Assembly (NCBI GenBank): GCA_963920765.1
Contig: OY987247.1
Span: 17,456,471-17,520,470, forward strand
Direction of reading: 5' to 3'
Length of the DNA: 64,000 bases
Source of the DNA: Ulota crispa
Taxonomy: Eukaryota; Streptophyta; Bryopsida; Orthotrichales; Orthotrichaceae
The notes under the pieces: model-generated
What the model was told of the DNA's origin: nothing
Seen by the model: only the letters and a program-made list of their open reading frames with translations
Databases searched by the model: none
Made by a program: the position numbers and the translations under genes
Shown here: piece by piece, positions 4,968-60,519 of the stretch
How the letters are laid out: every line of letters starts with the position of its first letter
Numbering within the stretch: position 1 is the first letter of the stretch

Positions 4968-6022
4968 TTAATCCCCAAAGGTCTACTACTTGGATATTCC
5001 ATGTTCCCAAATTTTTTAAACTTTGCATTGATTTCTATAAACTAAAATTATAAAATAGGCATTTTTAGAGCACCAAAAGAAGTCCAGTTGAGCTCAAAGT
5101 TAAATTCGACTGGAAACTTGTTTGACGAGGTGGATGCAAAATATGTGGAATAGAGTTATAGTAATTAACCTAAAGGACCAAGCAGCGTATTCACCAAAAA
5201 CTCTCCAAAATTGACATTTTGAGAGCATCAATCAAATTTGAAAACAAAAACATGTCTATGCATGTGTAATCATAGGATCTTGCAGTAGGATATTCTTAGA
5301 AGATTTGGAAAAAAATTTAGAATTTTTTAGTTCATGGATTGGAAGACAGAATGGTTTGTATATTCAAAAACATCTTGTCAAAATTTAGGCAGTTACTCTT
5401 TAGAAGGTGAATTTTCAAATGAAAAAAGGCCGTGTGGGTGGGGCTTCTTTAGTTTTCTTACTCCACTTGAGTAGGGTACATGTCAAAAAAATTCAAATCA
5501 TTTGGAATTATACAACATATGGGAAAATTATAGTAAGTAAAATGAAGTAGAAAATTATTCAAAACACTAAATTGTTAAGAATTTAATTATGGAAATGAAA
5601 AATGCTAGTCCTAATGGTTGTAATGTTGTAGAAAACAATTTACATCTTTTGGCTTTTTTTTCCCTGAAATAATGGAAATTGAGTAAATTAAAGAACTCCA
5701 AAATTTATTCTAGAATAGAGAATCCATAATTGCCGGTAAAAAAAACTCCTCATAACTTTCATGTCATTCATCAAAATGGAATGATTCAAAGCTTTCCACA
5801 TTCACAAAAAGCTCCTTAACCAAATATGCTGAAGATAAAAAACAACATATTAGGCCATATCTTCTTATTCATAACTCCAAATATCATGAAATTTAGTGCA
5901 TATGAAAGATAAACCTTGTTCCCATATTCCCTAAAATATGAAAATTTCCAATTACAAGTACCAGCCCAAAATTGCTATGTTGCGTAAAAAGGGGGGAGGG
6001 GGCTTGGTCCCGTAGGGGTTAA
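4968..6022. mobile_element. TTAA-bounded fold-back element, long diverged copy
   Basis: The left end reads TTAATCCCCAAAGGTC and the right end, reversed, reads TTAACCCCTACGGGACC. The interior near 5750-5830 (cataactttcat..., ...cacattcacaaaaagct) resembles the interior of the copy at 30411-31363 near 31040-31100, which supports common origin. No coding capacity is visible. Ends are more diverged than in other copies. Confidence 0.6.
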
Positions 6023-6247
6023 GGTTTAAACATTTGTCAAAAGGTATCTTCCTTTTTGATGGCAAACCTTTTTCGATTTGCTGATTAAAGCATCTCTTCA
6101 CAATATGCATAGTCGTCCATTCATCTTCATTAATGTTTTTGTCATAGTTGTGCTACTTTGAAGAAAAAAGAGTTATGAACATTCCAATTTTCAATGTTGA
6201 TTTTGTCTCTTGTATAGTTAAAACTATATTTAGCCTTGTGAAAAAGA

Positions 6248-6660
6248 GGGAACAACTAGGGAGACACCCCTAGTTGCTAGGGAGACACCCTCAGTTGTTA
6301 GGGAAACACCTCTTGTAGTCCAACCTATTAAATTTGAGATTATTATTATGTGGAAATATGAAATAAAATCAAAACAATATTTTAGCACACATTTGTATCT
6401 GCAAGCGCTGTAAACATACAATAAATATGTCTTATTTGTGATATGGTCAAGAGTTAAACTTACAAACAAAGGGAATGACTAGTTTTAACTCTTGACCATG
6501 TCACAAATGAGATATATTTGTTATGTTTGCAGTGCTTACAGATGTAGAAGTGCCCTAAAATATTGCTTTGATTTTGTTTTGTAATAATAATCTCAAATTT
6601 AATAGGTTGGGCTATAGGGGTGTCTCCCTAGCAACTGGGGATGTCTCCCTAGTCATTCCC
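6248..6660. mobile_element. Fold-back MITE (GGGACACC family), copy 1
   Basis: Nearly the whole element is an inverted repeat with arms of about 200 bp. The left end GGGAACAACTAGGGAGACAC pairs with the right end (reversed GGGAATGACTAGGGAGACAT). Arms carry TTAAATTTGAGATTATTATT and a stretch with 'tcatttgtgacatggtcaagagtt'. The same internal sequence recurs in the element at 40572-40952, so this is a repeated family and not a chance hairpin. Confidence 0.88.
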
Positions 6661-6836
6661 CAAAACTATGGCAAAGTAGCTACAGAGCTTTGCTAGAAAC
6701 AACATAGATTCACTTGTCAATTGGTGAAAACAAATATAGTAGGGTTTTCCTAAGAAGAGCTTTCAAGTGCAAAGCCATGGAAACTTTGCCTGCTTCCAAG
6801 TTTCATGGAACTTGTGGCTTGTGGTTAGCCTTTAGC

Positions 6837-7355
6837 TTAGGGCATCTACAATGCACCCGGCAACATGCCCGGTACATTATGTCTGGTCCATTAATAGGCA
6901 ATAAATTTTAACATAACTTTTTAATGATTTGAAGGGCATTGAAAATGTTATGGTGAAAATACAATAAAACCTAGGTTTGGACATTCACTGATTTAGACAA
7001 ATCTCAGCAAATGTTAGCTAACATTCAATAAATTTAGAGGTCTCTTCAAATCAAGCTTAGGAAAGGGAAATTTAGCCAAGGGGACAATACAATGACATCC
7101 CAATACCGTCCCTTTGGCTAAATTTCTCTTTTTTAGGCTTGATTTGGAGAGACCTCTAAATCTTTTAGAAGTTAGCTAACATTTGATGGGATGTATCTAA
7201 ATTAGTGAATGTTCAAACCCAAAATTTATTATGTTTTCACTATAATATTTTTAATACCCTTCAAATCATAAAAAAGTTATGTTAAAGTTTATTGTTTATT
7301 AAAAACCACATATAATATATTGGGCTTATTGTTGGGTGCGTTGCAAATGCCCTTA
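6837..7355. mobile_element. Large fold-back element (GAGGTCTCT core family), copy 1
   Basis: Inverted repeat with arms of about 250 bp. The outer ends are TTAGGGCATCTACAATGCACC on the left and the reversed match CTAAGGGCATTTGCAACGCACC on the right. The centre has AGAGGTCTCTTCAAATCAAGC facing GCTTGATTTGGAGAGACCTC. The core recurs in the elements at 45911-46328 and 57020-57420. No protein coding seen. Confidence 0.85.
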
Positions 7356-8051
7356 GAGCGTCTCTTGCCATTTGCCAAATGTTCAAGCCCTAGTGCTTTT
7401 TGGATGAAAAGCACCTAATTTTAGTGGTGTTGGCCTTTGCATTTGTCTTCCCCTTTCAAATAAGCCATATTTGAAGGGGGCCTCTAAACTCTTTACAAGC
7501 TATATTTTATGGTGATCATAACTTCCTTTATTGCTTTTGGAAATTCTTTGACTTTTTATTGCTTTTGAAAATTCTTTGACTTATGATAAGTTGGCACTAT
7601 ACTTAACAAGTTGCAATACTAGAGATACAAGTGGCCATTCCCTCTAAAACAAATAAAGAAAAATTGGAGAGACCTGGACATTTGGTGGGTCGCAAGAGAT
7701 GCTCTTCACACCACAGAAATCGAGAACACATCATCACCGAAATGTTCAGCACGGAGTTGGACTTTACGAGAAAGCTAAGTCGGTGGGCCTTCAGTGTTGA
7801 CATTGCGCTCATGACCATCAGAGTTGGATCCATAAACTGTACTTTTTTTGTGTTTGACTACTCCTTGCACGAGCTCTTGACCTTTGTGGATTTGCAGTGT
7901 TTTAGGATTTTATCTGTATCGCAGAAAGTCCGTAGCTGATAATGTTGGAGGAAGGCAATTCTGGCTGGAAGTAAGCTTAGGCTGGGGTTGTCGTTCGCTT
8001 TCGAATTGTCGCTTGACAGACATGTGCAGGGTTGTAGTATTTGAGAACACA

Positions 8052-8560: not shown

Positions 8561-8797
8561 CCATATTAAGTAATTTGAGAAAAAGGGTATTTTTTGGGAC
8601 TTTTGAAAGTTTTAGGTGATCACCTAGAACTGAGCTCCAACATTTTTTTGATACATGTATCCTCACTTGAGAGGAGAAATTTGTGAGGGAAAAAATCTTA
8701 ATGGCTCAAACTAAATCTGATACCCTCAAATCTGATTTAAGGTGACTTTTTGGGTTCTAGGTGGAGTACATTTTTCCCAGATTACTTAATATGGTGT
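8559..8797. mobile_element. Inverted-repeat element (CCATATT...TTTGGGAA family), copy 1
   Basis: Ends GCACCATATTAAGTAATTTG and the reversed right end AACACCATATTAAGTAATCTG match. The interior contains 'gggacttttgaaagttttaggtgatca' and 'gatttaaggt'. Related copies lie at 11107-11355, 13309-14068 and 24781-25044. Confidence 0.8.
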
Positions 8798-8799
8798 TT

Positions 8800-10412: not shown

Positions 10413-13400
10413 ATGGTGATCAGATTTGTACTCCAGGGATTGTTTCTGTTCCTGATAATTCTATTTTGTAGCCACTCGGCTGCTGAGGCTCAGAATTTTA
10501 CGCCTGTTGCCGCGTATCAAGGGACGTTTCGATCCGCTCCCTCGGACTGTAAGACCCTACCCTTTTTCTACTCCTTCCGAAGTTTTTAGTAAGAGCATTC
10601 TTAGGAACTGCAGCTGCACACACCATGGTTGTCACATTGGATCAACACTGAACTGCCTGTTTGTTCAAAGCAACCGCAAACATTCAAGGCTCAAAAGTAA
10701 TTGCTTTTTTCTCTTCTTTTTTAAAGTACGGATACGGAAACAACCCGGCAATTGCGTCTTGCCTTGAGGTTTACATCTCGATTTTAACATGAACAACCAC
10801 CCTGCTTGGTCCGATCTGTCCGTCCGCCTATCTTATCTCATAGCCAAAATCTTGCCCTATGTGCCAACCATGACATGGCATACACTGTATCCTTCCAACC
10901 TTGCCAAGTCTCAGTCAACAACAACTGAGCTGGAACACATATTACTCTTGACAATTTCGCTCTTGTGTGCTTCCTCCCTATTTGGCTTTTTTTTGAAAAG
11001 TGTGAGTTTGTGTCCCCGACGAAGCTAGCTGAGTAGCTGTGGCCAAAACAAAGAAGGGAATGAGATGTAGGGTTCTACGGTTTTGCAGGATTTTTACAAG
11101 GCTTTTAACGCGATATTCGTTAATTTGGGAAAAACAAGGGCCCCACTTTGTTTTTCCCTCAAACCCAAAAAATTACTTTAAAATCAGATTCGAAGGTATC
11201 AAATTTAGTTTGAACCACTAAGATTTTTTCCCTTGCAAATCCCTCCTCTTAGGTGAGGGCAGGTGTCGGTTTGAGGTGATCGCCTCAAACTTCCTGACTC
11301 ACTTCTTGAAAGTCCCAAATTATACCATTTTTCTCAAATTAACAAATATCGCGTTTTTTTTGTCAGGAGTTGGTTTTGATCAAGTTGCATGTGGTGTTGT
11401 TTTATTTTGGTTCTCTCAGTGTATGCATTGAAGCAACTATGGAATGCTTGGAACAATACTCCGGAGGTGCAGACCAACCTCGCAGGTTGGAACGCTCTTG
11501 TGAATGAGACGCAGATGACGCCGTGCGTCCCAGACAGTCCATGGCGAGGCGTCTTTTGCAACGCCAAATCAAATGCCACTCTCAGCGCTCAGTCAAACAC
11601 GACTGTGTGGGATCTCGAAATCACCGGCTTGTAAGACTCTCTGCCACCTCACCTCTCTCTTGAAGCTAACATGAAATTGTGTAAGGTAACTTAGGGACAC
11701 CACACCACTTAAGGTAGTTTGCTCTAAAACCGCCACTTTAAGTTTGTTTTATTAGAATGCGATTGTTGACTTTCAAATTAAGCACATACTTACAAGGGGT
11801 ATATAGTATTATGCAGATTCTCATTAATTTAATTTAATCTTTTCTTTTAACTTTTGTTTTGAATTTGTGGGAGGAACTGATTGTTTTTGAATGGGCTTGG
11901 TGGATGACAGAGCGTTATCGAACGCATCCCTCTCCGGCACTATTCCAGAAGGCATTGCGAATCTCAGCAATCTAGTAACATTGTGAGTTTAAAATAATGG
12001 CCATTTTCTAAAACTAGGTTTATTTATTTTGGTGGATTTCTTCAGTAGGGACTTGAGTGCAAAATAAAAAAATAGTTGTCAGAGGAATGAGTTTACTTCA
12101 GGTGAATTTTTAAAACAGGGAAAATTGTACATAACTTGGGTACTGATTACGCTTGCAAATTTTTTTGCAGATCTCTAACAAACAATCCTGGCTTGACTGG
12201 TCCCCTCCCAAAAACGTTGGACAACTTAAACAGCTTATTTGATCTGTGAGTACAGTGTAACAATTTCTATACCTGAACTTGATCCCAGTTTCCATGCACT
12301 GGTCCATGCCAAAATACTCCCAAAAAACTAAATTGAAAAAAAGAATTCACTGTAATGTAATGAAAGTAAAAACAATGTAATGTAATTATGTCTATGTTAG
12401 ACAAATTCAACCATTTGTAGCACAACTATTAAGGTATACCCAATGCCAACCATGTACCCAATGTTGTCACTTTCTACAAAAGGTGAATATTCTAAAACCC
12501 CTAAATGTCTAAGCGTGCAGTTGCGATTAGTAGTATACGAGGTACTTTTCTTGTGTTTGAAATAGATTCACACCTTTACTATATTTGAGATCAACAAAAA
12601 AGCTGAAGAATAGATCAAATTGATTCTAGTGAGCTACTTGTGATACCAAATTAAAACTTCTTATTGGTAACAAATGTCCATTATACGGCAACTTATATAC
12701 TATGCCCTATGGATATTTAAGGGTTAAATATAGGCATACCATAGATAACTTAACATTTGTGACATAAATGATAAACTCTCTAAGGCATACTTAGATTTAA
12801 ATTCTAGAATGTCCATCTTTTGTAGAAAGTGATGTAATTGAGTTCATGGTTGGTATTGGGTATACCTACGTTAGACTACAATAATTCATACAATTACTTT
12901 CACACCCAATAATTGTATGATTTACATCCATTGTTTGATCTATTGCATAGCAGTTTTAGTTGGCGGCCGAATATAAGTTATTAGTTTAAAATGATATATT
13001 TTAAGGAATTTCTCGACGCTTGACTTTTACACCTTTATACTCTTAATTGATTGTTCATCTTGAGCGCCACAGAGTTGCTGTTTTTTTGGGTTATAATGTG
13101 TTAGCTGATTTGCTATTTTTGATAATGATAGATTTCAGTGAAATTTGCAAAACATCAGATCTATGGTAGTCCTAGAGTTCTTACTATTCTTGGTACTTGT
13201 TTTTTCCCCAGGGATTTACATGGGAATAACATTATTGGGGAAATTCCTTTTTGGAAAGAGGAAGCGTTTGTCTTTCTTCAGAACATGTAAGTCTTGATCA
13301 ATACCCATAAACGCCATATTCATTAATTTGGGAACTATGTTCAAATTTGGGACTTTTGAAGGTTTAAGGTGATCATTTTAACCCCTAAATCCCTGGGTGT

Positions 13401-16400
13401 CCCCGCGGGGGACGAATGAGATTTTGGGCAGGTACCTATGATTAAACTACTTTGTGTGATTTTTTGAAACTTTTATGGAATATGGGGAATTTGAAGATCC
13501 GTGTGCATATCTAATTTTTTTTTTTCATTCTGACATTTTTTGAAGAAGTAAAAAATGAATTTCTGATTTTTTTTGGAGATGGGGCAGTTTGGGCAGCCCA
13601 AAATTTTTTTTAAGATTTATATTTTTTTGAAATAAAAATCTGAAAAAGTTCTTGGGCTGCCTAGACTGCCCCATCTCCAAAAAAATTAGAAATTCATTTT
13701 GTACTTCTTCAAAAAATGTCAGAATGAAAAAAAAAAATTAGATGTGCACACAAATCTTCAAATTCCCCATCTTCCATAAAAGTTTCAAAAAATCACACAA
13801 AGTAGTGTAGTCATAGGTACTTGCCCAAAATCTCATTTCCCCCGAGGGGACATGCAGGGATTTAGGGGTTAAACCTAGTTCTAGGTTTAAATAACGTTTT
13901 TTTTGGTACACGTGCCCTCACTTGAAATGAGGAATTTGCAAGGGAAAAAAATCTTAGTGGCTCAGACTGAATCTGATACCTTCAAATTTGATTTAAGGTA
14001 ACTTTTTGAGTTGAAGGTGAAGTTCAATTTGGGAACCGCTTTTTCCCAATCTAACGAATATGGCGTTCATATCAAATGCTTTCTAGAGTTGGAGTTTTGG
14101 TTCATTTTTTATAGTCTATTTCTGGGCTCTTTTCAGTAATGTTAGACTGGTTCACTTCTATATTGTGAATACTCGATTTAGCTTGTTTTGAGTTCTTATT
14201 TTAGCTCTTTGAGTTTTGAGTTCTTGTTTTAATTCTTTGAGAGGAGGCGTGTTTTGTCTTGCATTCAACATGTATATCAAGCATCGTTTTCTTATAAGGT
14301 AAATCTTTTAAATTTATGAAAATTACTCTAAACACCATATTAGATAAATTGGGAAAAATAGTATACGTTGAGGCTTTCATTATTTTGTCATCATGTATAA
14401 TTTAGAATATTACAAAAAAACATGTATAATTTAGAATATTACAAAAAAACAAGCCTGCACTTTCTTGACCAATAGTGAAGTCTTAGTGATTGTTTTCAAG
14501 AATTTCAAAGAAGTACAACTTTGAGTTATAGCTATGCCTACATTTACTACATGCAAGATTAAGGTGGAGTACAAAATGGTCCCTTTCTATATACAAACAA
14601 ATGTCTTCATGTTGCTTATTCAAACTTTGTGAAATAGATTACTTTGATTATTTAGATTTTCAACTTTGAGTGTCAAAGTATGAAAATTAACCCTTTCAAT
14701 CATGATACTAAGAATATGGTTATGTCACAATTGCTTGTATTATGGGAAAACCCTTGTTTGTGGAAAAGTTTCTTATTGATTTTTTTTTTTTTTTTATGAA
14801 AATGATTTTTATATGAAGATTGTGCATAATGATTAGGTTTACTACCAGTAGCTACTATGATGCTAATTTGGCTAGTCAACATTAATGTGTCAAGTTTCTA
14901 TAAATGAGATAAGGAGGGTTATTATGTGTTATTCATGGTGACTTGGTGAGCAGTTGGGTGTAACAATTATTTCCCTCTTGGACTTTCTTGATTCTAGAAT
15001 ACAGCCGCTTAACATTACATCCTACTACTTTCTCAAGCTTTCCAATTCTTGAAATTTATGTACTTTTCTTTGACCTAACGATTAGATAAAATTTAATCAC
15101 TTAGGGTAGGGGTATGTCCTATAAATTGAAGACCTAACTGTGTTATGTACTTGATAAAACAAGAAGAACAAAAAAAATACCCAAGTTGGTTATCTAGTTC
15201 ATAATCCTTTGCACCAAAATTACTAAACCAATTTAGACCCTCAAATTTTTGAGATATACAACTCTTTGAGAGAGTGTTAGGTGGATGGGGTTTTGGCTCC
15301 AAAACTTCTTCTCCCTTCCAACTTGAAACACTATGTGACAATGATAATAACAAATCAGGGTATAGAACTAATTAGTATCCCTCCTCATGCGGCATGGTAT
15401 TTCTTGTAACCTCAACATAAGGTAGGAGCACCCATAAGCGTTAGTGTCCCCATAATCGTCACCTTTAAAATATTGGAAAATCTATGGAAGTGAATAGATG
15501 TAATTACAAGGATGTACAACATGTGAACATGAAACCTTAGTGTTAGTTATGGGTGCAATGGTAGTTTGCTCTTTAAAAATTCACAACTTATTCTCACAGT
15601 ATTCAAATAATACATTCAAAAGTGCAAACTTATTATTTTTTGTTCCTAATAGGATCCTATAATTTTCTAGATGTTTATTAAAAGCCATCATGTTCAAAAC
15701 CCTTAAACTGACGCTTATGGGTGCTCCTACCTTAGTCCATATTGATACAAACAGCAATCACTTGTTTGATAAAAAAGAAGCATGTTGTTTTCCATGACAT
15801 ATGAGTGGGTCAAAGTTTAAGAGTCCTACTAGCTAGTTGGACCCTGGATTGAGCATGATTGAACATGATTCAAACATTGAGATTTTTTATAACAACACAA
15901 AAATACACAACCTTGTTATAGAAATAACCTTCCTAGTTCCTCCCCACTCCAATGCTCAACCAAATTTTGAGCTTCAATGACAAAATCTGACCTTTAATTT
16001 TGTATTTTTCAACCAATTTTTCCAGTACATACATTAGGTACTGCCTGTATATTTATACTATATCTAAACCTTTTTTGAAAATTTGGCCACTTTTTATGCC
16101 GTTTAAATATCACTTGGTTATTTTGCCATCTCATTTGGTTGACTTCCTATGGTTTTTTTTAATCTCATTTGCTCATTGCCACTTCTATAACTTGGTATCT
16201 TACATCTTATAACAATGTTATACGTTTGCCTCACCTAATCCATCACAATGGTTTACTTTCTCATTTCGGTGTCCATGCTTTCTCATTTCCATGTTTTTAA
16301 ATACTGCTTGAATAAGATTCATTGTGTTTTTTGGGTTGCCCTTATATTTGCAAACGTAACAACAAATATTGCAAAGTGATGACATGCTATGTAATGTCAC

Positions 16401-19400
16401 TCCTACCATCAAAAAGAACATGTGACAATCTTTTTTTCAAGCAACATTTATGCAAGTTAGGGACCTCACACACAAGCCATCTCACGTTTGTGCCACTAGT
16501 CACTTGATTTGCACCCTTATTTCAGTGGCTATAAACAATGAGAATTCCCTTGCAAGAGGTCCTTATATCACATTTCAATTTTCATGTAACCAATAGTTGT
16601 TAACCCCTCATTGCTAGCAGATCTCAAAATACATAGGAAACAAGGACTATTTTGTTTGTAAAGGTAATGAGGGGTTAAAGTTTAAAATCTTAAACATTTT
16701 GTGGACTAATACAATGAAATGGCGCTTGCCTCTTGGTTTACCTTGTGGTTGCAGAAACTTGGCGGACAACAAGTTGACTGGATCGCTTCCACTCAACCTT
16801 TCCAACTCATTCCGTGCTATGCAAACATGCAACCTCTCCTATAATTTATTTTCTGGGAATTTTTTGGCAGTGGATATCTTTGGTTACCTCCATAAAGCAG
16901 TGACGGTGTAAGGAACCCAACTTAACCCTACTCTCACTTGTGAAATGTTGGTAGGTAGGTCTTTTTGTTTTTTCAGGACCAAACAAGAATACGTAAAGCT
17001 TTGTAATTATTAGGACAACATGGAGATATCATATTTAACTAATTCGTGACAATTCTAAGTCCAAAATAATGCATCACGTCACAAGGCAAATAGAAATTGG
17101 AAGTTTTTCTATTGTCAACCAATGACCCCTATGACCCCAATTAGTTGCATGGGGAGATCCTTGGATTGGAGGGTCAGTTTGTGCTTGGAAAGTTTAATTC
17201 TAGAAAATGTGAGTGACGTTGAAATATTTTCCAATCACCATGACTGTATGCAATCTAGATTTGCCATGCCCAAAATTGTAGGATTTTTTTAGTATGACCT
17301 TACTTGAGAAAAGGGAGTTGACTAGCAAAGCTTGTCTTTTGCTGCTTTCTCAAAGAAATTGTGTGGAGGTTGGTTTCTAAGTGGGTTGTTGACTATTCTA
17401 ATTTCTCTAAACATGCAGGGATTTTTCTCACAATGAGTTCAGTGGAAGTATGCCCTTCTTACTCAATTTTACCATATACGGGATTGCCGTGGCAGTAATA
17501 GGACCTCTAACTTACTTGTAAGTAAACCATATCTTATTGAATAATCAAAGCATTGTGATTTGGTATTTTGCATATGATTGTATAAAAGCAAACTAGCTTC
17601 TATGCTGGTCCAAAATATTCAAACCATGAATCAAGAGATAAGTTTGCACTCTTGATCAATACAAATTTTTGCCTAATTATTCTTAACCAACATGGAAGTC
17701 TGTTCTAAGATTAAGAATTGATGTGTCCAACATATTGCTAGAGAATGTCCTAAACACTTTCTAATTGGCATGAAAGGGAATCTTTGACTTCTTATTTTGC
17801 AAAGTCAATTTTAATTTGAAGGAATTGAGAGCTTCTCAAATGAATGAGTCATTGTTTTCACATATGAGAGAGTATTGTTGAGCCCTTTTGTTTTGCTTGA
17901 TAAAATATGATTTGGCATGACTTTACTTTGAAGGAAACTCTTGATTAGAAAGGTCTCAAAAAGTGCCATGCTACTACCATCATGGTTGTCACATTGGACA
18001 AATTGATTGTTTGCTCAAAATCTCAATTGAGTGTCCATCTAACGTAATCAGCTCATAGTTGATTTTAGCAAATAATAAAAAAAACTTATCTTGTACATGT
18101 TGGCCACACACTTTGTTGCCAAAATGAAATTAGAACGCAAATTAAAAACCATATCAAGTAGCAAAGATAAAAAAAGTAAATTTATTCTTCCATTTTTAGG
18201 TTAAAAACCCTAATATATGATATTGGACAAATTAGTTTCCTTGTATTGTTTAGCTTGCTTGTTTGCTTGTCTTTCATATTGGCCAAATCTTGCCCAAAGT
18301 AACTACCATGACTACCACTCAAGGATGGTGGATATTGTGATGTGTAGGGATCTTTCAAGTAACAAATTCAATGAAACTCTTCCAAACATCACAGCACACA
18401 AAACCCTCCAACACTTGTGAGTGCATTCTACTAATTTGGAGCAATTTTACATCCTATAGATTATGTAAAAGATTTTTCTTAGTTCCTCACATTGATAGGT
18501 TAACTTTAGAAAACCATGGTGTGCTGCACCTCTTTTTGTCTCTTTTTCCATGCAAGCCAAAAAAATTGCTTTGTTTTTGAAATCTTGCTCAAAATGATGC
18601 TTTAGTTTTTCATTAGGCATTACCCAATTGAATGCTAAAATTGTTTCATTGTGCGTTGTAGCAATGTGAGTAATAACTTGCTCACAGGTAACCTTGATTC
18701 AGCGCTGCTTTCCAATGTTCCAACGTTAACAACCATGGATTTGTCACACAATCTTTTCTCTGGATCCATTTCTAGCTTGGCTTCCTTGTCAAATTTGCGA
18801 TACTTGTAAGTTGACATGCACATCTCTTGTCTAGTAGATTTAGTCATCTCTCTAGGAGGCATTGAAACTATCAATTGTTGAGAATTCACATGTATATAAG
18901 GTCTTAGGATTTTAGGGTTTAGAGTTGAAGATTTAGGGTTTGAGGTACGTGCTTGCGTAAAAGCTGATTAGAGCTTATTGTGTGCAGAGATTTGAGCTAT
19001 AACAACTTCAATTCAGGGCCAGTTCCTAATTGGACTACGGATCTCAACAATCTAGAGACTTTGTGAGTTTAACATACACGCCCAAATAATAGGATTTAAA
19101 AAAAGTTTGATAGCTTTTGAGAAAAGACTTTTCAATTGTGACTTAGAAGGAGATCTAAAGATGGTTTAATTGATCATACCAAGGTCTTTATGCATTATGA
19201 GTTCACTTTTGTGAATGTTTATGGTTATAAGACCTTCTCATGAGCTATGGAAAATTTTTATTTTTTTTCTATGAGGTTCTAAATTTGTGATATTTACCAA
19301 AATAAAATAAAATAAAATAAAAACCTTTTAGGTGCAAATTGTGAGCTTGCACCCACCACGCACTTCATCATTGATTCTTTTTCTTCTTGGATTGTTTCTT

Positions 19401-26339: not shown

Positions 26340-29300
26340 ATAGAAAACTTCTTGTTTTTTCTTTTTTGTTGTGGACCTCAAGGGAAGAGGTTGTGTGTCA
26401 AGAGAAGTTATTTTGAGGAAGTTTGACCATACTCTACTCAACTAGCAAGCCATTGACATAGTCTTTTGTAGCATAGCTATTTGTTTTCTTGGTAGTAGAA
26501 AAGTGGAATTGGTTGCTTTTCTTTTGGCTTGCTTGTGACTACCAAGGTTGCACTAATCATGCAATAATTTTGATGTGTTGGCACAACCATGAGTTTAGAA
26601 CACAAAGCTCCTTAACTTTGGACTGCTTATGACGCTTATCTTGAAAAGTGTCAAAGTTGTGAACTTTCACCAATTCACAACATGATTTGCCATCTCTTTT
26701 GTTTATTTAACTTGTTTTCAATGAGCTTTATTTTCCATTATCCAATTTCTAATTCTATATGTTATTTTGTCAATTTAAAGCGTTTTTATATATGCTTCCA
26801 ATGATAATTTTCACAAGTTCTAATTTTACACCAAACAACAAAAGACAGCAAGAGTGCTGGATTGATGATGCCCTTATAGTGAAAGCTGCAAGGAAAGAAA
26901 ATTAGGTGATAATGAGTTGCACTTTAGTACTTTCCAGCTGCAGCATGCTCCTTGTTAGCAAACCTAGAGAAGCAATTTAGGATATTATCATTAAAGAGAA
27001 AAAAAAACATCCAAATTTACTTAAGTATGGAATCTATTCAACTCATGATAATAGCCATTTTTTGTAATTATTTCAAATTTTTGAACTCTTTTGGGAAAAC
27101 ACCTAAGATTACTAGCACAATTTGATATTATAGATTTCTATTTTCAATGTCATTGTGGCCGTCAACTCCAACATTGGCCTCTTTGGACAAGGGATTCCTT
27201 TTGATGGATGAAATCATGAGTCAACAATTCCGGACCGCTATTAAATTTGTGTTCTTTGCAAATAATAGATGGGTCTTAGCTTAGTGAAACCATACGGGCG
27301 CAATTAATCATCAAACCTTGTTTGTCACATACCTCAACACATTCATTTACAAGTTCTCATTTTGAAACTTGCAGACAATTAACAAAATTTTGAATTGCAA
27401 CAATCCTGCACCTATATCAAAACCTTTGCTAAACGTTTTGTACAAATTACATAACTACTCATAGGTACTTAGTAGTTCAATAGTTTATATTGTACTAAAG
27501 CAATTAGAATGATTTCTAGCTTGCCTATAATGTCCAACAGAGGCCATTAATGTTGAAAGGCATGTTGGACCAGTGTTAGAACACAAACAAATCAGAAGCC
27601 CAAAGCATTTTTTTTCAGAAACTACAACTTAGGCTAACCAATACTAATTGCTAAGTTGTTTGACAAATGCAAAGCAAGAGTTATGAAGCCTGCAACTTAC
27701 GCAAGCTTGTCAAGGTGCACTTGGAGAATGTTGAGATGTCATTCAAACTCTTTCAGCCAATCATTCCTACAATCCTTTGGATCTAACCATTCTCAACTGC
27801 CTACTTCCTAGTTGTCCAATTCATTCCAATCCATTCCAGGTTTACCAGGCTAGATAAAATGATCCATTGACTTTCCAATATGTTCAAGATTGACCATCTG
27901 TACTTCCATATCCATTAGCAAAGTTTTGAGCCCTCCAAGAGCCCCCTAAGGTTTGACAAACCAAGCAACTAACCTTTTAAGGACCACGCGACCAAATTTT
28001 GGTCGCTGGGAGTGGTTTTTGGTCTGTAGGTTGAAATTGCTCAATAATTTAGAATTTTGTCTTGAAGTACACATGTGATCACAAGAATTTTGCATCCATC
28101 TAAAAAAATAACAATGCAATCAAATATGTGAGTCGATAAATTATGGTGTTTATACGGCATGGCTTCAAAATACGTATCCAATTTTTGTCAAAGATGGATC
28201 AAAGCAACAACACAATACATCAAGTATGCAAGAATGTCAAATTTCAATTGCACAATTCTAAAAAAATTCAAATTGCTTAAGAAATACACTTGTATTGTTT
28301 TCATATACAATAGTAGTATAGTTGTAGTATTTGAAGATCTACTGAAATATTGTTGTCATTTTGGCTTTAAAATTTTCATCTTACATTTAAGGCCAATTCT
28401 TGATTGTTTTCACCATTTGGATTTTCCAGAATAATTATCAAATTTCTTGTAGAACCGTTTTTGGGTAGCAAAGAAAGTGGGTTTTTTGACCCTTTTTGTC
28501 CACTTAGCTACACCTTGTGATTGCTATTTTTGTCTATTTTGTGTGAAACTAATCTTGTTGGAAAGGTGGGAGACCCCGCTTTCTAGAAATGTAAGGCTCT
28601 TCTCAATCAAAGCTTGCATGAAAGGTTAACATTCAAAACTATACAGGAATGAAACACAAGAGATTTTCCACATACGGCTCACTCAATCATTATAATGTTT
28701 CACCTCCAAGGGTAGATCTAGCTGAAATTTTGGTGCTCTACAATAAACAAGGTATACTTCCCATTTGTACAGTTGGATTATTGAAAATGGGTCCATATTT
28801 GAGTCAATTCCAAATCTAAGCTTACAACCCTTGTTTTTAGTGGATTTTTGTGAAAATGGGTGTGGTCGTTAAAGTATTAATTGGCTAGCCTGAGTACAAG
28901 AAAAGTGCATTCATACCCATTGCTACCTTGTATGAAGGACTTAAGCCACATGCACAACCCAAAACAATAAAAAAGGGCATTGTACTCATAAAATATGTAA
29001 ATGTACTCACTATTCACTATCCCAAGTACTTCACTCATTTATTCAAGTAGAGTAAAGTAGTATTTATGGTCCTATTGTACATTTGCACCCATAGTTTTTC
29101 TCCAATAAGGATAACATAATAGTATAGCTTTCATGATTGCATTGCTCTCAAGGGTGAGTGGAAATAAGGGATTAGTGATTTATTTGTTGTAAGAAGTACA
29201 TGCCTTGGGACCATTTTTGGTATTTTGGAGGGGGTTCTTGGAAGGCTCAAAACTTTGCTAATGATGGATCTTGATTAGTCTATAGTACAGAACAAGTAGG

Positions 29301-30410: not shown

Positions 30411-31363
30411 TTAACCCCTAAAGGCCCAAGTCCTTTTTCTATGAAAGTCATTGAAGCCTAAAGACTGTCATTTTTGAGGGAATAAGTAGAAGGTTAGGAA
30501 AAAAAGTTTTTTTTGGAAATCCAACCAAAAGATCTTGCCCTAAACTATGGGAGGTACTCTTGGGAAAGAAATCAGCTCATTCTAGATGAACACAAGTGAG
30601 GTATTGACATCTAAAGTGAAAAAAAAAGTTCTTTTCCGTGCTGCCCAAAAATTTCAAAAGCCTTTGACCACTCCTATATCAAAAAAATTGCTCTACTCAA
30701 AGTTGAGGTTTTGTTTTTCCCATGTAGAAAACCAAATTAGGTATGTGTGGGAGAAATTTTCAAAAGAATTGAAGGTGTGAATCACACTTTGTAAAATCTT
30801 GCAATGCCATAAGGCCATGAAATTTGCAAATACACTAAGCAAGATTTATGCAAAATTTAGAAATCTGAATTACTTTGATCCAAATGGTGAAAAGCAAGGA
30901 ACCTAAGTCTATTTTAACTTGGGAAAAAAAAAAGTAAAAAACAAATACACAAAGAGCTCAAAAAAATAAAGCACCAAAATTTACAAGGGGCAAAAGAAAT
31001 GGGTTTGGGAGTCCCATACCTACCAACAAACTAAAACTTCTCATAACTTTCATCTTATCAATTATAATTGAATTATTCAAAGGTTCCCACATATATAAAA
31101 AGCTAAAGAATCAATTTCAATTTTTTGTTTAAAAAAACACAATTTTTTTTTGGGCTGCTCAATTCTCCCCCATTTTTTAGTTATTCATGCATAACTTCTT
31201 CAACAAATGTTAGAATGAAGAAAAAATTAAATGCCCACGTAGATCTTTGAATTCCCCATCTTCCACAAAAGTTTCAGAAAATCCCATAAAGTAGTTTAGC
31301 TGTAAGTACATGCCCAAAACCCCACTTGGCCCCTGAGGGACCACTTGGACCTTTAGGGGTTAA
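30411..31363. mobile_element. TTAA-bounded fold-back element, long copy
   Basis: Left end TTAACCCCTAAAGGCCCAAG; reversed right end TTAACCCCTAAAGGTCCAAG. A subterminal palindromic patch (GGCCCCTGAGGGACC) precedes the right tip. The right half (about 31150-31363) matches the arms of the copies at 13378 and 60199. The long interior has no credible gene. Confidence 0.88.
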
Positions 31364-40956: not shown

Positions 40957-41352
40957 TTAACCCTTAAAGGACCACTTGGTGGCCGTGGCCTGCCCACTGC
41001 CCCACACTGTAGGTTCAACAATAATTATACTATAGTTTCAATAGTGTTTTGGTTGATGGGCACCGATGGTATTGCTTTTAAAAGTTTCAAAAGTCAATAG
41101 TGCATGCCAACCTCATGAAAATTGCAATAAGGGCAGCTTGGGGCCTAATACCATGATTTTGAATTTTCTCACAATTTGAGTTACCTAAAAATATGAGCAT
41201 ATTTGATAAGATGGTTTTTTGCCTTCTATGATGGATCATGTGTTTATGGTCACTTTGGAAAAAAAGCAGATGAAAAACAATTTTTTTGTTGTACAGAATT
41301 TTTTTTCAGGGCCAACGGACAATAATTGTCCTCATGGGCGTTTAGGGGTTAA
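40957..41352. mobile_element. TTAA-bounded fold-back element
   Basis: Left end TTAACCCTTAAAGGACCACTT, right end GGGCGTTTAGGGGTTAA. A subterminal hairpin CCACTTGGTGG is seen at the left, and GTCCTCATGGGC at the right. Interior AT-rich and non-coding. Confidence 0.82.
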
Positions 41353-44667: not shown

Positions 44668-44901
44668 TTAACCCTTAAATGACCATAGGGCATAGTATAT
44701 ACGGTGACATATAATTGTCATTTGCTACCAATAAAAAATTTTAATTTGAGACCTCAAGTAGCTCATTGAAACCGCATTGATATATTCTCCAACTTCTTTG
44801 TTGATCTCAAATGTAGTAGAGGTGTGGATCCATTCCAAATACAAGAAAAATATCTCGTATTGTACTGGTCGCAAAGGGCCTTTTGGTCGTTTAAGGGTTA
44901 A
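44668..44901. mobile_element. TTAA-bounded fold-back element, short copy
   Basis: TTAACCCTTAAATGACCATAGG at the left and GGTCGTTTAAGGGTTAA at the right, 234 bp. It lies between the divergent SMP-30-like and RRP7 genes. Confidence 0.8.
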
Positions 44902-47034: not shown

Positions 47035-48592
47035 AGTGTTTGTTTTAGTCATAGATTGCCACTGGTAACACGTAACCTTTTTGTGTCTGCGTGACGGTGA
47101 ACCTGTACAGAAGCGTATCGCTAGGGCAAGCAAGCCTTTGCAGATCATTCGTTCTGGTGTGTCCCTACCCCAAAATTCAATGTCTAGAGTTTGCAACCTT
47201 AGTATTAGCTGAATTATAGTTGTAAGTCACCGATTTTATGACCAGAATGCCTGCTTCAAACAATAGCAAACAATAGCTACAGCATGAGACCGAGAACCAT
47301 GCGTTTTCTTTCAGTCTAGGGCTGATCCATCGTTCTGAGCACTACTGAGGGACGGAGCTTCAAATGTACAAGTTATTACACAAGTTATTCAAATTACTGC
47401 AAAATTTGAATAGTGCAAGATGCAGGTGCACTAATTTGGATAGAATTCAGACTAATCAGGTCTAATTAGTGTGAAGGCATAGAATGTCTCTTGCCCTTGT
47501 TCTCCAATTAGGATTTTGGGCAGAATTTCTGCCAACCCTTGGGGACAGATTGATTTGGCGGCGCATCCTTTCTAAACAGTGACAAGACAGTAATTAAATA
47601 TTGTGCCCACAATATGTTGAAGTTACCTAAGTTACTATGAATTACTTCGTTGCTACGCCTTGACTTGTTTCTTGCATTAGTGCAATTTATTGTTATTAGT
47701 GCGGTGTATAGTAACTATAGCAAGATTTTTACTTTGGAGACCTTACTGTTTGAGGAATACTAACAAGTGAACAGCCATGTGCAGCACAGTACATGGTCAG
47801 AGTGATTTAATGACTGCATTGTAGAACCAAGCAAGAGCTTGAGGATGTTTTCATTGCACATTCCATACTATCGCCATTGTAGTGGGAAAGAGGTGATGCA
47901 ATCTGCTAATTACCGATACTGACACGGTCTTGCTGGAGCTGGTTAGGGTTCCAGTTTTTACGGCTAAACTCAAATCTATTCTCGGGAGAAGGCAGGATTG
48001 TACTCCCTCTGTCCCTCTAAAAACTAAGGTAATCTGCTCATAAACCGTCCAGGTATTAAAACCAGGTATTAAAACCGCCACCTTCTCAAATTCTCAAATG
48101 TACCCTTGCTGTACATGTTTTTTTTCATAGGTTTTCAAAATGTACAAGTAATGTATATTTGAGGAGGTGGGTGGTTTTAGAGATCTATGGCTTTTCCACT
48201 TCAAAATTTCATGACTAATTCCACAAAATTCCAAAAAGTACGAAATGATTTGGGTTAGATGTCAATTCTTCTTGTCTTTCAAGGAAAATTTATTGAAAAA
48301 TAGTTCAAGAAATTTCACCTCTCCAAAATTTAATTTCAGCCCTTAGATGGATGGTTTATGAGCACACTACCTTCGTAACACATGCATTCTAGAATCAATA
48401 TACCATTTACCAAATGTATGCAAAATTTTTAGCTTTGATATTTTTGTTTGGACACCCAAATTCCATGCAAAAAGTACCATATTTGTGCATATTATCAACT
48501 TCTCATTATTGATGATTTAAAGATTAGTAGCAACAATGGTACCTCGTATGGGCAAGGTCAAGCTTGCTAGGAGAGGAATGCTCCCTACTTGC
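47035..48592. other. RRP7 3' flank and gene-free sequence
   Basis: The first few hundred bases should contain the RRP7 3' untranslated region. No other gene recognised. Confidence 0.45.
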
Positions 48593-48823
48593 TTAACCCT
48601 TGAACGGCCCTAGGGCTCTAGAGATATGGGGTTGTATTAGTCAAATATTGTCTTCACCAAATTTCAAGAAGTGCAAAACAATATCAAAGATTGAAGCATT
48701 GTGTGATTGTGGTTGATAACTAAGGGTTTTATAGTAGAGATTGAAGCATTATGTGATCATGATTGATATGTATTAAACTCGTACATATGCCCAAAAAGGG
48801 CCTTCGGGCCATTTAGGGGTTAA
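48593..48823. mobile_element. TTAA-bounded fold-back element, short copy
   Basis: TTAACCCTTGAACGGCCCTAGG at the left; GGGCCATTTAGGGGTTAA at the right, 231 bp. Subterminal palindromes GCCCTAGGGC (left) and GGGCCTTCGGGCC (right). Similar in length to the copy at 44668. Confidence 0.82.
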
Positions 48824-51110
48824 CTTGTCCCCATGAGATCATTGAACATGACAAATGCTTTCTCAATGTTTGAAATTATCAAAAGGGAGCTTTTTAGTGG
48901 TACTAGAAATGTGTTTGATTTGGACGTTTTTAGAGGGATAGAGGGAGTTCATAATTAATTTAAATTATGTATGCCTAAGTTTTAGAGTGGTATGTGACAT
49001 GTTGCCAATGGCTGAGATTATCATTATACTCTATGTGGCTATTAGAAAAGAAATGATTTTACCTTGTGGGTATACTTGTTATCAAGCTCTCAGAGGTTAT
49101 TCTATCACATTTCTTTGGAAGCCCAGTGACATTTTTTGGTACCACTGTTGAGTTGTGCATGTGTCTACCTTTTCTAGAGTTGGAAGAGACATTAATGCCT
49201 ACTAATTCCTAAGTGCTTCAAAGTCCATGTTCTTGACTGGTAAATGTAGTGCTTTTGGGTGATGTTTACTTTGTGTTTAATTCATCGAAAGGAATGTTTG
49301 GATATTTAGGAATCAACTTTTATAATTCATTTGATGAAATTGAAATAAGATGATTTGTTTGTATAAGAAGAGAAGCAAGCATATACAAAATCTCTGAAAA
49401 GGATTTGTATTTTATCACAACAAAGCCTAGTTCTTTAAAGTTTATTTTTTCATGTTGAGTAATTTAAAGAGGCGTTTTTTGTGAATGCTTCGAAATTGCA
49501 TTATCAAAATGCAAATTGGAATTCTAAAACCACTTGGTCAACCGAAACCATTTTATTTTTCTGTTTGGCAAATCTGAAACTACATTTTTTTTCAAAGCTC
49601 ATCCAATGCAACTTTTGGCAAACAAAAGAGAATCATGGATTTGTTAGGACATATGGTTCCAAGTATGTATGAATTTGAAAATTCTACTGTGATTTCAAAA
49701 CACGTTATTTTTATAATCTGATTACATAAATGACATTGAATATTGTAATGATTGAGAGAAGCTTTGTACCAAGTTGAACAAAGACTTGAATCATCGAATT
49801 TGGTATTACAACTTTAGGGCGATGAAGGAGTAATTTCAATTCTCTTTCACTACATAGATTCAAATGACGTCCTAGCTTCATTGTTAAATAATGTTATCTT
49901 TAACATGCATTTAAACATGTTCGTATTTTTACTAAACTACCTAGGTTTTTTTATAAATGTAATTGTAATTAAAAAGTCAAATCTTCGGAAAATTCTTTGA
50001 ATGTTAATTTCAAATTGTGAGTGAACAAAACAGTGAATTTCAGAGAGCCATAACATTATGTAGAAGTTACCTAATTCAAACTTGTCCAATTATCCAAGGA
50101 AGGAAACTCTTAGTTTTTTAATATGAGGTTTCAAACCTTTTGATGTTTTCTTACCGAAATACGTTCCTCTTATACAAGATTTTCTCTAACCATCTTTGAG
50201 GAGTAAAATAGTTATGTTTCACACATGTCTCAAAACCATCATTTCCATTCCGCCCACTTGTATAGATTTTTGAATCTGGGTTTTTATCTATTTATGAGGA
50301 GCCTTTTCTACCTCTTGATGAGTACAAATTTTTTTGGTACAGTGCATGACACTGGCAAACCAGTAAATCTTGAATTTGAGTGGTCAATTTATTGCTTTTT
50401 CAAGAAAATTGCTATCAATTATCCAAGATCACTTATCTAGATTTTGTTGTTCTTACTGGTGAAATTGCTTTTGAGCTAATGAGTTATATGTCATGCATTA
50501 TAATTTTATGGCAAAACACAAGTTTCACAAGGAAATAGCGGTGATTTTCTCGAGAAGAATGTCAGATTTGGCAGGGATAACTTTTTAAGGAAATTTGGTC
50601 TATTTCAACTTTGAGATCCTTTAAGAAAAAGAGGGTTTTATTCCAATATTATTTGAAGGAGTCTTCGATTAATTTTAGAACTATTTCTATTAGCACTGCA
50701 GCATCTATATTTACACCAAACGAAGATAAAAAGCTACTAAATCACCAAGTCTTTAGGGCAAGAATCATCCAGATTAAGTTACTTCATACATCAAAGTTAC
50801 AGTTACGATTGTTTATCATACAGACACAAAACAGTTTACAAATTTCAAGTTGCAACTAAGGTAATTACACTATTTTGTTATCCTCATATCAACACATCTA
50901 AAAATAACATTCATTCAGAATCTACAATCTTAACTTCTTTCCACAAACTGTGGCAATTTGATATTCTTTACAACCAAGTACATGCACAAGTCAGTAAAGT
51001 CTAGAGCAAACTTTGTTATATTCAATTAATGCCACTCATACACCCAAACTACTACCACTAAAAGAAAGCCAAAACAAAACCCCAATTTTTGATTTGAGTC
51101 TGAGATAGTA
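48824..51110. other. Gene-free stretch
   Basis: AT-rich, many poly-T and poly-A runs, no exon-like sequence recognised on either strand. Confidence 0.45.
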
Positions 51111-51113
51111 CAA

Positions 51114-56400: not shown

Positions 56401-56409
56401 AAAAAAATT

Positions 56410-56982: not shown

Positions 56983-57019
56983 ACTTATATAGGGGTTCCA
57001 AGCTCTAGGAAAAAGAGAG

Positions 57020-57420
57020 GGGAATTAACAAATAGGGACACAAAAACAAACAAATATTACAAACATAGGGTTTGTTTCATAATAATTACAAGTAGGGGCA
57101 TAATTTTAAAATAATTTGCAAATTTCTTTGTTTATCATAGTAAATGTTAGCTAACTTCCAATCAAACTTAGAGACCTCTTCATATCAAGTCTAAATAAGG
57201 AGATTTTAGTAAAGAGGATGGCAATTATACATATCCCTTTATTAAAATTTCCTTATTTAGGCTTGGATATGGAGAGGCCTTTATGTTTGTTTGAAAGTTA
57301 GCTAACATTTAATGTGATGTCCAAACCAAAATTTTACAAGAATTTGCGAATCACTTTGAAATTGTGCCTCTATTTATTATTATTTTTTGTTTTTTTGTGC
57401 CTCTAATTGTAAATTTGCCA
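57020..57420. mobile_element. Large fold-back element (GAGGTCTCT core family), copy 3
   Basis: Inverted arms of about 190 bp. The core has TTAGAGACCTCTTCATATCA facing GGCTTGGATATGGAGAGGCC. Same structure as the copy in RRP7 intron 2, more diverged. Confidence 0.82.
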
Positions 57421-60198
57421 AAAGAAAAAAAAATCAGAGTCATTTTTTGCAAGAGAAAACCAAACTTTTATCACTTGCTTGTTTTCATGGAAAAATTGGG
57501 AACTTTTGCACAATTTGGGAGTTGCAGAAAAGCGTAAGCATGGGCTCTCTTGCATAAAAGCAACAAGCAACCAATCTTGAAATCATCGTGAGGAATTAAG
57601 ATTTTCACCTTCGAAATGGATTGGATTGAAAAGCATGTTTGGCTTAGAAATCGATCCGAGCTTAGAAACCTTCTAAATACGTACCTTTCATGCTCCATAT
57701 ATACCAAAATGTTTGTTACTTTTTCCCCAAAATCCAACCACATATAATTTTTTTGGTGAAATTCGATTTGAAGATTAGAGCCAAGAATAATTTACACATT
57801 TGCTAGTGATTTTTATTGCTTCTTCCAATCTAGGCAGATTGTTGGTTAATTGATTAGCTTATTTATTACGGAGTACATCCAGATGTTTTTACATTGATTC
57901 TTAAAACTATCAAAATTATCGTTCTATTAAGTCATATGAAGATTTACATATTCATTAAAAAAATTGTGGTATTCAATAAAATCTGCTAACTATGTTATTT
58001 AGAAGGTTTGCATGCCTCAAGCTTCAAGACTATCTGTGACCATTGGGTAATGTAAAATTTTAATAAGTCACTACAACATAAACACCTAAGTGACATTTTT
58101 ATACAATTTTGGACAATGTCAATTACAAAAAAAGTTTTGAAAGTGGTCATATAATTTTGTACAGCAAAACTTGTTCACCACCAGCGGAAGTAGGGTTTGT
58201 GAAACCAATTTTTGAGACTATACTTTTGTTTCCAAAAAACATTTTTCTACTTGTGAAATCCGATTATTATTATTATTTGAAATAGATGTTAAGTATGATG
58301 ATAGAAAGAATAATTTTAATTGAAATTTACGGATTTATCATTTCAACATTTGCAAGAGAGTTTATGCTTTTGAACTAAAAAAAATTCAATAACAGATTTT
58401 GTTTCATAGATCATAATTAATCAAATAAGTGATAAATAATAATTTCCAAGAAATGCATGGCCTGCTCAAACCTCTTCACTCTTGTTATAAACTATGGACT
58501 TTGTTGATTGTTCCCTTCATAATGTAACTTGGGATTTCAAATAAAAGCAATGGAAGCTATTTACATCCAAACATGTAGGTCATAAATAAAACGTTAAATT
58601 ACATCTAATCATACGTACATTTAACCAATTAAATGCGCGTTCATTTGAATGTGCACATGTCATCTCACTTTGAAAATTTGTTGGGAAATTTAATTCCATT
58701 CCAAAATGGACAGTCTTCAGCAAGATGTTACTTCTTTTTCTGCTTTTCCCCAAAATTAAAACCATATGAAAAACTACCACAATAAAGATCTTGTAGTAGA
58801 TGAAATTTTTTTTGGATTAAATTGTGTCAAATTACATCAATTAACACAATAAGTATGCCTTGTCTCTCTTTCAGATTTTTGTTTTATTCAACTTGTTTCT
58901 CTCTTTACCTTCCTTCTTTACCCTCCCTTTCCTTGCCTTTTCCTCTCCCTCCTCCCTCTAATAGAAACTTGGAACTGTGGGTATTAATAAATAATTTGAA
59001 TTTCCAACGACAATCATACAGCCCACTCTTTATAATATAAACATATATATGGCTACAAATGAGACAATATGTGAGAGTTGTATAGCCAAATGAGCTTCCA
59101 TTTTGGATGAAATGTTGGATGAGATCACCATACATATTGTATACATAGCATAATACACAGATGAACTAACTATTTTTATCCAAAATTTTCATGGATGTAA
59201 AAATGTGTGGCTTTCTATTTACAATTTTTATTTTTGTCATTATAGAACTCTCTAAAAATTGAAAGACAAAGGTTGGAGTGGGCTACGGTAAGAGTGTCAG
59301 AGTCCAATAAGTGCTCCACCAATTCCACAATGTACCTGTAATGATGCAACGTAAGAATTATTGTATTACTGCAAGAAGATCGACCGGACGTCTTGAATTC
59401 ATATTTGTTTGTAGGGGGCAAATAGGCAGACGAATAGGGGCAGGTTTTTGTTATTTGCCCTGGTCTAAACAAAAATTGGAGGTTGCAAATCCTTCCTAAA
59501 GAGGAAACTTCTTGATATACCTAGATTTGGTTAAATCAGGCTCTATTTTAAAGGCAAATTGGGTAAGATGCCCTAAGGACGCTGTTAAAATACCTTGGAA
59601 AAAAATATTGCACTTGATTCATTGTAGTTTTCTAACTCAAAACCCTGACGGAGTTAAACAAAATTAATGGGTGAAGAGATCATGTAAATAAATAAAAGTA
59701 TTATATGAAATGTCAAAAAAACCGGTTGAATTACGAATTCATCAAATAAAACTGGTCACATTTCAAGAGAATTATAATCGTAGCATAAATATAGAAAATA
59801 TCTAATACATGTATGTGTAAAAGTGGTAATAAACTAGAAATGCCAAATTTTAGGTACACTAAATATCGCATTTAGGTTGCTTTAACAATTAGGTTGCCAC
59901 ACCCTAAAAAGTTATCTTGTAACTTAATGCTTGGCTACATGGAAGCACATGCAACTCTCTAGATATTATAATTTCACATGGTTTCCAACTTGAATGTTGT
60001 TAGTTTTGTTTTTGCAACTTTGATGTTGTTGCTAGGCCTTTAAAATTTAATTGTTACAATAATTCTCAACAAAAATTATTGTAGAATTGTTGAGTATTTA
60101 TATAGTGTAAAACTAGTGTGGAGCAACCTCTAAACTCAATATTCAATGCAAGGAAGCTCAGAATTTTCTTTGAAATAGGACAAAATAAACATTTGTTA
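57421..60198. other. Gene-free stretch
   Basis: AT-rich, no exon-like sequence recognised on either strand. Confidence 0.45.
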
Positions 60199-60519
60199 TT
60201 AACCCCTAAAGGACCAACTGTCCTCTTGGGGAACAAATGAGATTTTGGGTATGCACGTACAACTAAACTACTTTGTGTGATTTTTTGAAACTTTTATGGA
60301 AGATGGGGAATTCAAAAATTTACGCGGGCATTTAATTTTTCCTTCATTCCAACATTTATTGAAAAAGTTATGCATGAATTTCTAAAAAACGAGGGAGAAT
60401 GGACAATCCAGGTAGCTCAGAAAACTTCTTTTAAAAAATCACACAAAATAATTTAGTTGTAAGTACATGCCCTAAATCCCATTTGTCCCCAAGGGGACAA
60501 GTGGTCCTTTACAGGTTAA
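60199..60519. mobile_element. TTAA-bounded fold-back element
   Basis: Left end TTAACCCCTAAAGGACCAAC; right end GTGGTCCTTTACAGGTTAA. The right subterminal hairpin TTGTCCCCAAGGGGACAA is perfect, and the left one imperfect. Arms match those of 13378-13872 closely ('actttgtgtgattttttgaaacttttatgga'). Confidence 0.9.

Follow-up and report, generated by a model that had tools for sequence, protein, structure and literature searches.

Inverted-tip elements in the window

The window analysed here is a 64,000-bp stretch of the genome of the moss Ulota crispa (assembly GCA_963920765.1, contig OY987247.1, positions 17,456,471 to 17,520,470 of the forward strand), and it carries a series of short transposable elements with inverted tips that read as members of the piggyBac superfamily (Table 1). 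The LEAFY DNA-binding domain likewise indicates a moss host: its two genomic matches, separated by 1.4 kb, run on from one another like consecutive exons, and 99 of the 101 residues compared are identical to PDB 4bhk ('FLORICAULA/LEAFY HOMOLOG 1'), the Physcomitrium protein, while the four remaining hits, including 2vy1 of Arabidopsis, show distinctly lower similarity. A preliminary description had listed seven of these as one family of miniature inverted-repeat transposable elements (MITEs), together with a left end at 63472 and a decayed copy at 27969-28882. Six of the seven (13378-13872, 30411-31363, 40957-41352, 44668-44901, 48593-48823 and 60199-60519) have TTAACC at both ends as described, whereas the seventh starts at 5165 and not at 4968. 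The left end partnering 6022 is that at 5165 (TTAACCTAAAGGACCAAGC), with inverted arms at 5169-5183 and 6002-6016, while 4968 was rejected as an element end, the letters there being TTAATCCCCAAAGG. The left end at 63472 and the decayed copy were both borne out, the latter having near full-length relatives (81-88% over 905-921 bp) in four of the loci retrieved from the genome (L014, L020, L024 and L027). Two further features had been overlooked, namely an end at 12727 on the minus strand and the tip pair at 16600-16678, whose tips resemble those of the transposase-bearing L009 element and which may be a tiny representative of the L009 family. All of these read as piggyBac elements, but they represent several families rather than one.

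The tip motif is far more frequent than expected by chance, both in the window and across the genome. Matches to TTAACCCYTAAA with at most one mismatch number 15 in the window against 1.3 expected (none of 100 shuffles reached 15), and a looser 16-base end pattern was matched 20 times, compared with a mean of 4.5 and a largest value of 11 in 20 local shuffles. Exact TTAACCCYTAAA occurs 39,919 times (19,961 + 19,958) in the 274.8 Mb of the genome, compared with 792 exact matches (397 + 395) for the same pattern read backwards as a control. The tips following TTAA begin with CCC, as in the piggyBac superfamily. Telomeric CCCTAAA repeats were set aside as a source of the tip letters, the matches being located at element ends (no search for telomeric arrays was made), and a plasmid search gave no match, as expected.

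Table 1 Transposable-element features of the window. LE and RE, left and right ends, upstream and downstream of the transposase, respectively; CRD, C-terminal cysteine-rich domain of the transposase.
Feature	Positions	Strand	Remarks
Decayed element, 858 bp	5165..6022	.	given as 4968-6022 in the preliminary description
Truncated relative of the 44668 family	12521..12727	-	one end only (12727); 82% over 207 bp
Apparent LE/LE MITE, 495 bp	13378..13872	.	two inverted transposase-upstream (LE) ends
LE palindrome, left end of 13378-13872	13398..13414	+	bp 17-33; proposed CRD-dimer operator
LE palindrome, right end of 13378-13872	13836..13852	-	
79-bp tip pair	16600..16678		TTAACCCCTCATT tips at both ends
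Decayed copy of ~914-bp family	27969..28882	.	tips TTAACCCTTTA.GACCA
Apparent LE/RE non-autonomous element, 953 bp	30411..31363	-	RE left, LE with palindrome right
LE palindrome of 30411-31363	31327..31343	-	
MITE of another family, palindrome at right end	40957..41352	-	86% to L014 398-809 over 412 bp
LE palindrome GGACAATTATTGTCC of 40957-41352	41316..41332	-	bp 17-33
Short MITE, 234 bp, third family	44668..44901	.	relative at 12521-12727
Short MITE, 231 bp, exact TTAA duplication	48593..48823	.	joined-flank matches and empty sites
Apparent LE/LE MITE, 321 bp	60199..60519	.	both ends match LE of L037+L029
LE palindrome, left end of 60199-60519	60219..60235	+	
LE palindrome TTGTCCCC..GGGGACAA, right end of 60199-60519	60483..60499	-	quoted in the preliminary description
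Left end of element running beyond the window	63472..64000	+	86% to L009 8902-9052

Target-site duplication

Insertion duplicates TTAA, as confirmed for two window elements (48593-48823 and 13378-13872). When the flanks of each element were joined over a single TTAA and matched against genomic repeat copies, 40 of 40 scored copies matched through the junction in both cases (from 2,244 and 3,039 first-look candidates, respectively). Twelve empty sites were read, five of them of the 48593 type; nine contained TTAA and three a tetramer one base off (CTAA, TCAA and TGAA), while a first, smaller comparison had yielded three empty sites for 48593, two with TTAA and one with TTAG. The empty sites thus display a single TTAA, or a tetramer one base off it, and no other duplication occurred among them. 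The repeated unit is TTAA, of 4 bp, flanking the element on either side and occurring singly in the empty site, and not the 3-bp TWA that is duplicated by PIF/Harbinger elements.

Weaker cases were also encountered. For a MITE in L024 (8562-9478), the two repeat copies matched lack TTAA at the junction, and the host repeat of 13378-13872 first matched a window copy at 8565-8676 (69%) with a 7-base gap and an L009 copy (78%) with CTAA; the later joined-flank search for this element gave much closer copies. The host repeats of 48593-48823 and 13378-13872 (window 48533-48883 and 13318-13932) are themselves very common.

Transposase genes in the same genome

A search with the PF13843 (piggyBac transposase) profile, in which 116 of 528 first-look candidates were scored, gave 120 matches in the moss genome (two each at a few loci), the best with E 1.3e-73, whereas 14 control genomes yielded no match. 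Among the 25 transposase loci retrieved for close reading, matching inverted tips flank the transposase in six (L009, L012, L013, L014, L026 and L029) and tentatively in others, including L010, L025 and L033, while one or both ends were not recognised in the remainder. The transposase found between matching tips is therefore that of PF13843, and the assignment to piggyBac, which had been proposed from target and tips, is upheld.

All 13 aligned moss transposases match PF13843, and in the Protein Data Bank (PDB) the profile of the moss transposases matched piggyBat (3.5e-54) and the piggyBac of Trichoplusia ni (1.4e-51). The motifs VDE.M, DNFF and GVDV.DQ, which are taken here to hold the catalytic aspartates, are conserved at these positions across the 13 moss transposases and in alignment with 6x67 and 9c0f; in a motif search, all three were found together in only part of the 25 loci. 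The profile alignment extends through the C-terminal Cys/His domain of piggyBat to its last residue. Two PiggyBac matches have no stops in the matched stretches (C1:1180709-1181995 in L023, where the match is split by an interruption, and C8:19570986-19572215 in L022), and a long simple repeat (THTYI/MYVC) stands directly behind the transposase in L011 (~5760-6380).

A transposase-bearing relative of the window elements

An 8,829-bp transposase-bearing element with other repeats nested inside it (C5:24506226-24515054, L037+L029) has ends in common with several window elements. Its LE aligns with the right end of 30411-31363 (84% over 199 bp), with both ends of 60199-60519 (86% over 180 bp and 85% over 92 bp) and with the two arms of 13378-13872 (77-82%), and its RE aligns with 30411-31363 (73% over 551 bp). 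Because of these matching ends, 30411-31363 looks like an internal-deletion derivative with one LE and one RE (LE/RE), while 13378-13872 and 60199-60519 look like derivatives with two LE ends (LE/LE). These window elements are short and without transposase, have ends in common with a transposase-bearing relative and occur in many copies, as MITEs do. For example, all 40 scored copies of 30411-31363 (window copy included) span at least 878 of the 953 query bases, the others being 81-85% identical to the window copy. L028 and L011 are collinear with L037+L029 through the transposase up to the RE tip; L011 was dropped as the parent of 30411-31363, its LE not having been found, and kept as a relative. 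Two copies of a ~400-bp palindromic repeat, also present in L012 and L022, occupy positions 3763-4193 and 5276-5661 of the joined L037+L029 sequence.

A subterminal palindrome at the LE

A palindrome of constant layout and variable sequence had been described just inside the tips, and this pattern holds at LE-type ends but not at every end. In the window, a palindrome at bp 17-33 is carried by the ends at 13378, 13872, 31363, 41352 and 60199, with a further one at the 60519 end centred at bp 24.5. The element at 44668-44901 is not among the carriers, and the sequence quoted for 48593 (GCCCTAGGGC) is a different feature, closer to the tip. The survey covered 298.7 kb, retrieved sequence and window DNA taken together, and comprised 67 ends in 50 clusters (the 60519 end lies outside this set); ends for the survey and for the permutation tests were not chosen by palindrome. 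Across 100 scanned centres, half-site pairing was best at bp 25 (0.38 versus a mean of 0.26, s.d. 0.03), where at least four of five pairs were formed in 17 of the 67 ends and 12 of the 50 clusters, compared with 1 to 6 at ten other centres.

The two halves of the palindrome covary. Among the cluster representatives (n = 50), 90 of 250 half-site positions pair versus 66.8 ± 6.9 when right halves were dealt out anew among the representatives (14 of 20,000 permutations reached 90), and nine clusters have at least four of five pairs versus 1.25 expected (0 of 20,000). The half-sites thus differ between families yet stay complementary, in line with the compensatory change that had been suggested. 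They are mostly G+C (mean A/T 0.31), while the 7-bp centre is mostly A/T (mean 0.66).

The palindrome is also largely one-sided. From transposase-bearing elements, eight upstream ends and 12 downstream ones were picked by eye and scored at four centres (bp 24 to 25.5); at least five of eight pairs were present in six of the eight upstream ends (L014 and L033 reach four), and the centre was over half A/T in seven of the eight. For the six elements with both ends identified, this level of pairing was found upstream in five and downstream in none.

Elements with two LE ends

The element at 13378-13872, whose arms are 94% complementary across 159 nt, is a shortened member of a family mostly ~735 bp long, with arms that correspond to the LE of the transposase-bearing element. 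A genome search with this element gave, among 40 scored candidates, 35 inverted arm pairs (25 with an overall span of 730-746 bp), two full-length matches (one being the window copy) and two single arms, so that 37 of 39 places are two-armed, the 40th candidate being unplaced. In the six LE/LE copies that were inspected, TTAACCC stands at both match ends in every case and the surroundings differ. By comparison, 40 scored hits for 60199-60519 included one comparable inverted pair (C9:11016916-11017641) and one nested cluster (C3:8832418-8833087), which do not establish this type as an amplified LE/LE family.

The arms of a copy appear to have exchanged sequence. In seven LE/LE copies (L040-L045 and 13378-13872), 29 private changes are common to both arms, alongside 39 that are left-only, 32 that are right-only and three that conflict. 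The arms within a copy are 93-98% alike in six of the seven, the exception being the window copy, while arms of different copies are 92% alike on average, as if the LE/LE arms convert each other.

The dispersal of LE/LE copies with TTAA ends through the genome suggests that two LE ends are acceptable to some moss transposase. Alternatively, additional binding sites within the long LE arm of the moss elements might imitate an RE; a second palindrome copy was looked for in the first 300 bp of the L029 LE and not found, though other motifs could play this part. It is considered slightly more probable than not that moss piggyBac transposases naturally mobilise LE/LE elements, in which case the LE/RE asymmetry needed in cells by native T. 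ni piggyBac and piggyBat would be no rule of the superfamily and the genome would hold diverged CRDs with matching symmetric operators. If true, a recognition code between CRD and half-site could be read from the natural set in the moss genome.

Other features of the window

Outside the elements, a tandem repeat at 505-1179, recognised by eye, reads VPLNGNRW or HPPVPVQW in different frames, and pieces of a receptor-like kinase gene were recognised by eye from open reading frames at 22137-25813.

Interpretation and alternatives

The window elements are, with high confidence, non-autonomous piggyBac MITEs and ~1-kb deletion derivatives that were inserted into TTAA by the transposases of their relatives, the LE palindrome being the proposed operator for a CRD dimer. 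Under this model, transposases from relatives of 5-9 kb in the same genome would have moved the MITEs by cut-and-paste into TTAA. Both ends of the relatives carry a short tip, roughly TTAA-CCCYTNANNGNCC, and the LE additionally has one palindrome at approximately bp 17-33, made of two ~5-bp half-sites around a usually A/T-rich 7-bp centre. This palindrome would serve as an operator for a dimer of the CRDs, each half-site being read by one of two identical CRDs so that symmetry is maintained, and its sequence would drift among families along with the CRD; LE/LE elements would be mobilised with two LE ends. In the cryo-EM structures of PMC7351741, the CRD dimer of T. ni piggyBac binds bp 17-33 and the minor groove is narrowed around the central bp 25. 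Since the moss palindrome shares its extent and centre with this site, it is likely to be an operator, and CRD binding to it is proposed on the basis of sequence and analogy.

Several observations weigh against this interpretation. Every one of the 25 retrieved transposase loci has stops in the match or looks broken by eye, the C-terminal Cys/His motif was recognised in only ten of them (eight with the preceding His), a PDB search with a single CRD fragment found no relative, and the predicted structure of a moss transposase (from 13 sequences) was poor (mean pLDDT 52.6). One of the 12 downstream ends (L019) reaches six of eight pairs, and the LE palindrome is weak in L014 and partial in L033, while in the L029 family it has its centre at bp 24, and that centre is rich in G+C. 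L018 and L033 have no certain partner end, so the palindrome may have influenced their selection by eye. A scan of the first 300 bp at either end of six elements revealed no further copy of the palindrome (the best candidates being at about shuffle level), unlike in T. ni. For the short families of 44668-44901 and 48593-48823, no transposase was found and the bp 17-33 palindrome is absent.

The palindrome could instead be kept because it folds, as a DNA cruciform or an RNA hairpin, with the fold itself under selection, as the preliminary description had considered. Complementarity does persist through changes on both sides, and each of eight 19-mers, taken as single-stranded DNA, folds better than most of its shuffles (0-5 of 200 as good; -2.0 to -7.2 kcal/mol). 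However, a two-fold protein site predicts identical pairing, so this pairing does not separate fold from operator: compensatory changes would arise without a selected fold because a homodimer reads both halves with the same surface. The stems are 4-8 bp long and some are weak (-2.0 and -2.9 kcal/mol), and the position, extent and one-sidedness are those of the T. ni CRD site, none of which a free fold predicts. Selection on the fold is thus unlikely and was the weaker part of the earlier proposal, while the site, its one-sidedness and its A/T-rich centre fit a CRD dimer on double-stranded DNA. Alternatively, the palindromes may have been perfected by mutation, through template switching between arms, rather than by selection. 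Conversion from arm to arm does seem to occur on a larger scale in the LE/LE copies, with their 29 changes common to both arms, but template switching leaves unexplained why the palindrome occupies the same base pairs across families of differing sequence and why it is missing from most downstream ends, and we regard it as very improbable.

Least credible of all, and close to negligible, is that the elements belong to another superfamily with TTAA or TWA targets, such as Kolobok or PIF/Harbinger, and that piggyBac transposases lie nearby by chance. The TTAA target is not unique to piggyBac; Kolobok elements also duplicate TTAA and are moved by a Kolobok transposase of their own. However, matching tips surround a piggyBac transposase in six loci, three related loci have a collinear RE up to the tip, and the repeated target is of 4 bp and not 3. 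Kolobok membership is unlikely given that a piggyBac transposase was found, no Kolobok model having been searched.

Comparison with known systems

Stowaway and Tourist MITEs of plants are likewise short, high-copy, non-autonomous elements with inverted tips, but differ from the moss elements in their TA or TWA target and in their transposase superfamilies. PiggyBac elements are widely used in genome engineering. PMC8086355 includes plants in the host range of piggyBac-like elements, PiggyBac is among the superfamilies present in all taxonomic groups studied in PMC4438587, and a fern repeat table in PMC6890710 has a PiggyBac row of 1,230. The earlier remark that such elements are seldom reported from plants fits this sparse literature, and the open-licence literature searched held no report of a comparable piggyBac expansion in moss (no search was aimed at natural LE/LE families). 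The presence of piggyBac in plants is thus known in principle, the kind of element being ordinary and the host and scale unusual. As the moss demonstrates, piggyBac elements can make up an abundant class of repeats in a land plant, a subject on which the searched literature says little. Its genome holds diverged piggyBac families side by side, with differing LE palindromes and a dispersed LE/LE family, and so opens two questions to comparison: how CRDs read half-sites and what lets symmetric ends move.

The tips of T. ni piggyBac begin with CCC, as do those of the moss elements. The T. ni system (PDB 6x67, 6x68) further resembles the moss elements in its TTAA target, its homologous transposase and an LE palindrome that spans bp 17-33 around a centre at bp 25 (PMC7351741), and the moss profile match to its transposase ends at T. 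ni residue 563, within the CRD. In contrast, T. ni piggyBac has a 19-bp palindrome in both ends, asymmetrically placed, whereas the moss elements have one copy at the LE (six elements). In PMC7351741, the native T. ni transposase is inactive in cells on LE35/LE35, for both excision and integration, while a hyperactive mutant uses LE35/LE35 to some degree, and the requirement for two unlike ends is termed enigmatic. Unlike this native enzyme, for which LE35/LE35 is inactive, the moss genome has LE/LE elements in common supply, and such a family challenges the current picture of end asymmetry.

The piggyBat element of Myotis lucifugus (PDB 9c0f), the best match to the moss profile, is similar in having an LE palindrome inside the tip and none corresponding at the RE. 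According to PMC11707139, the piggyBat CRDs bind an imperfect LE palindrome with an A/T-rich centre just inside the end, and the piggyBat LE carries three motif-palindrome units, where the scanned moss LEs carry one. Donors with LE/LE or RE/RE ends gave no transposition in human cells in the experiments described there (PMC11707139); whereas symmetrised piggyBat donors are immobile in that setting, the moss genome contains dispersed LE/LE copies.

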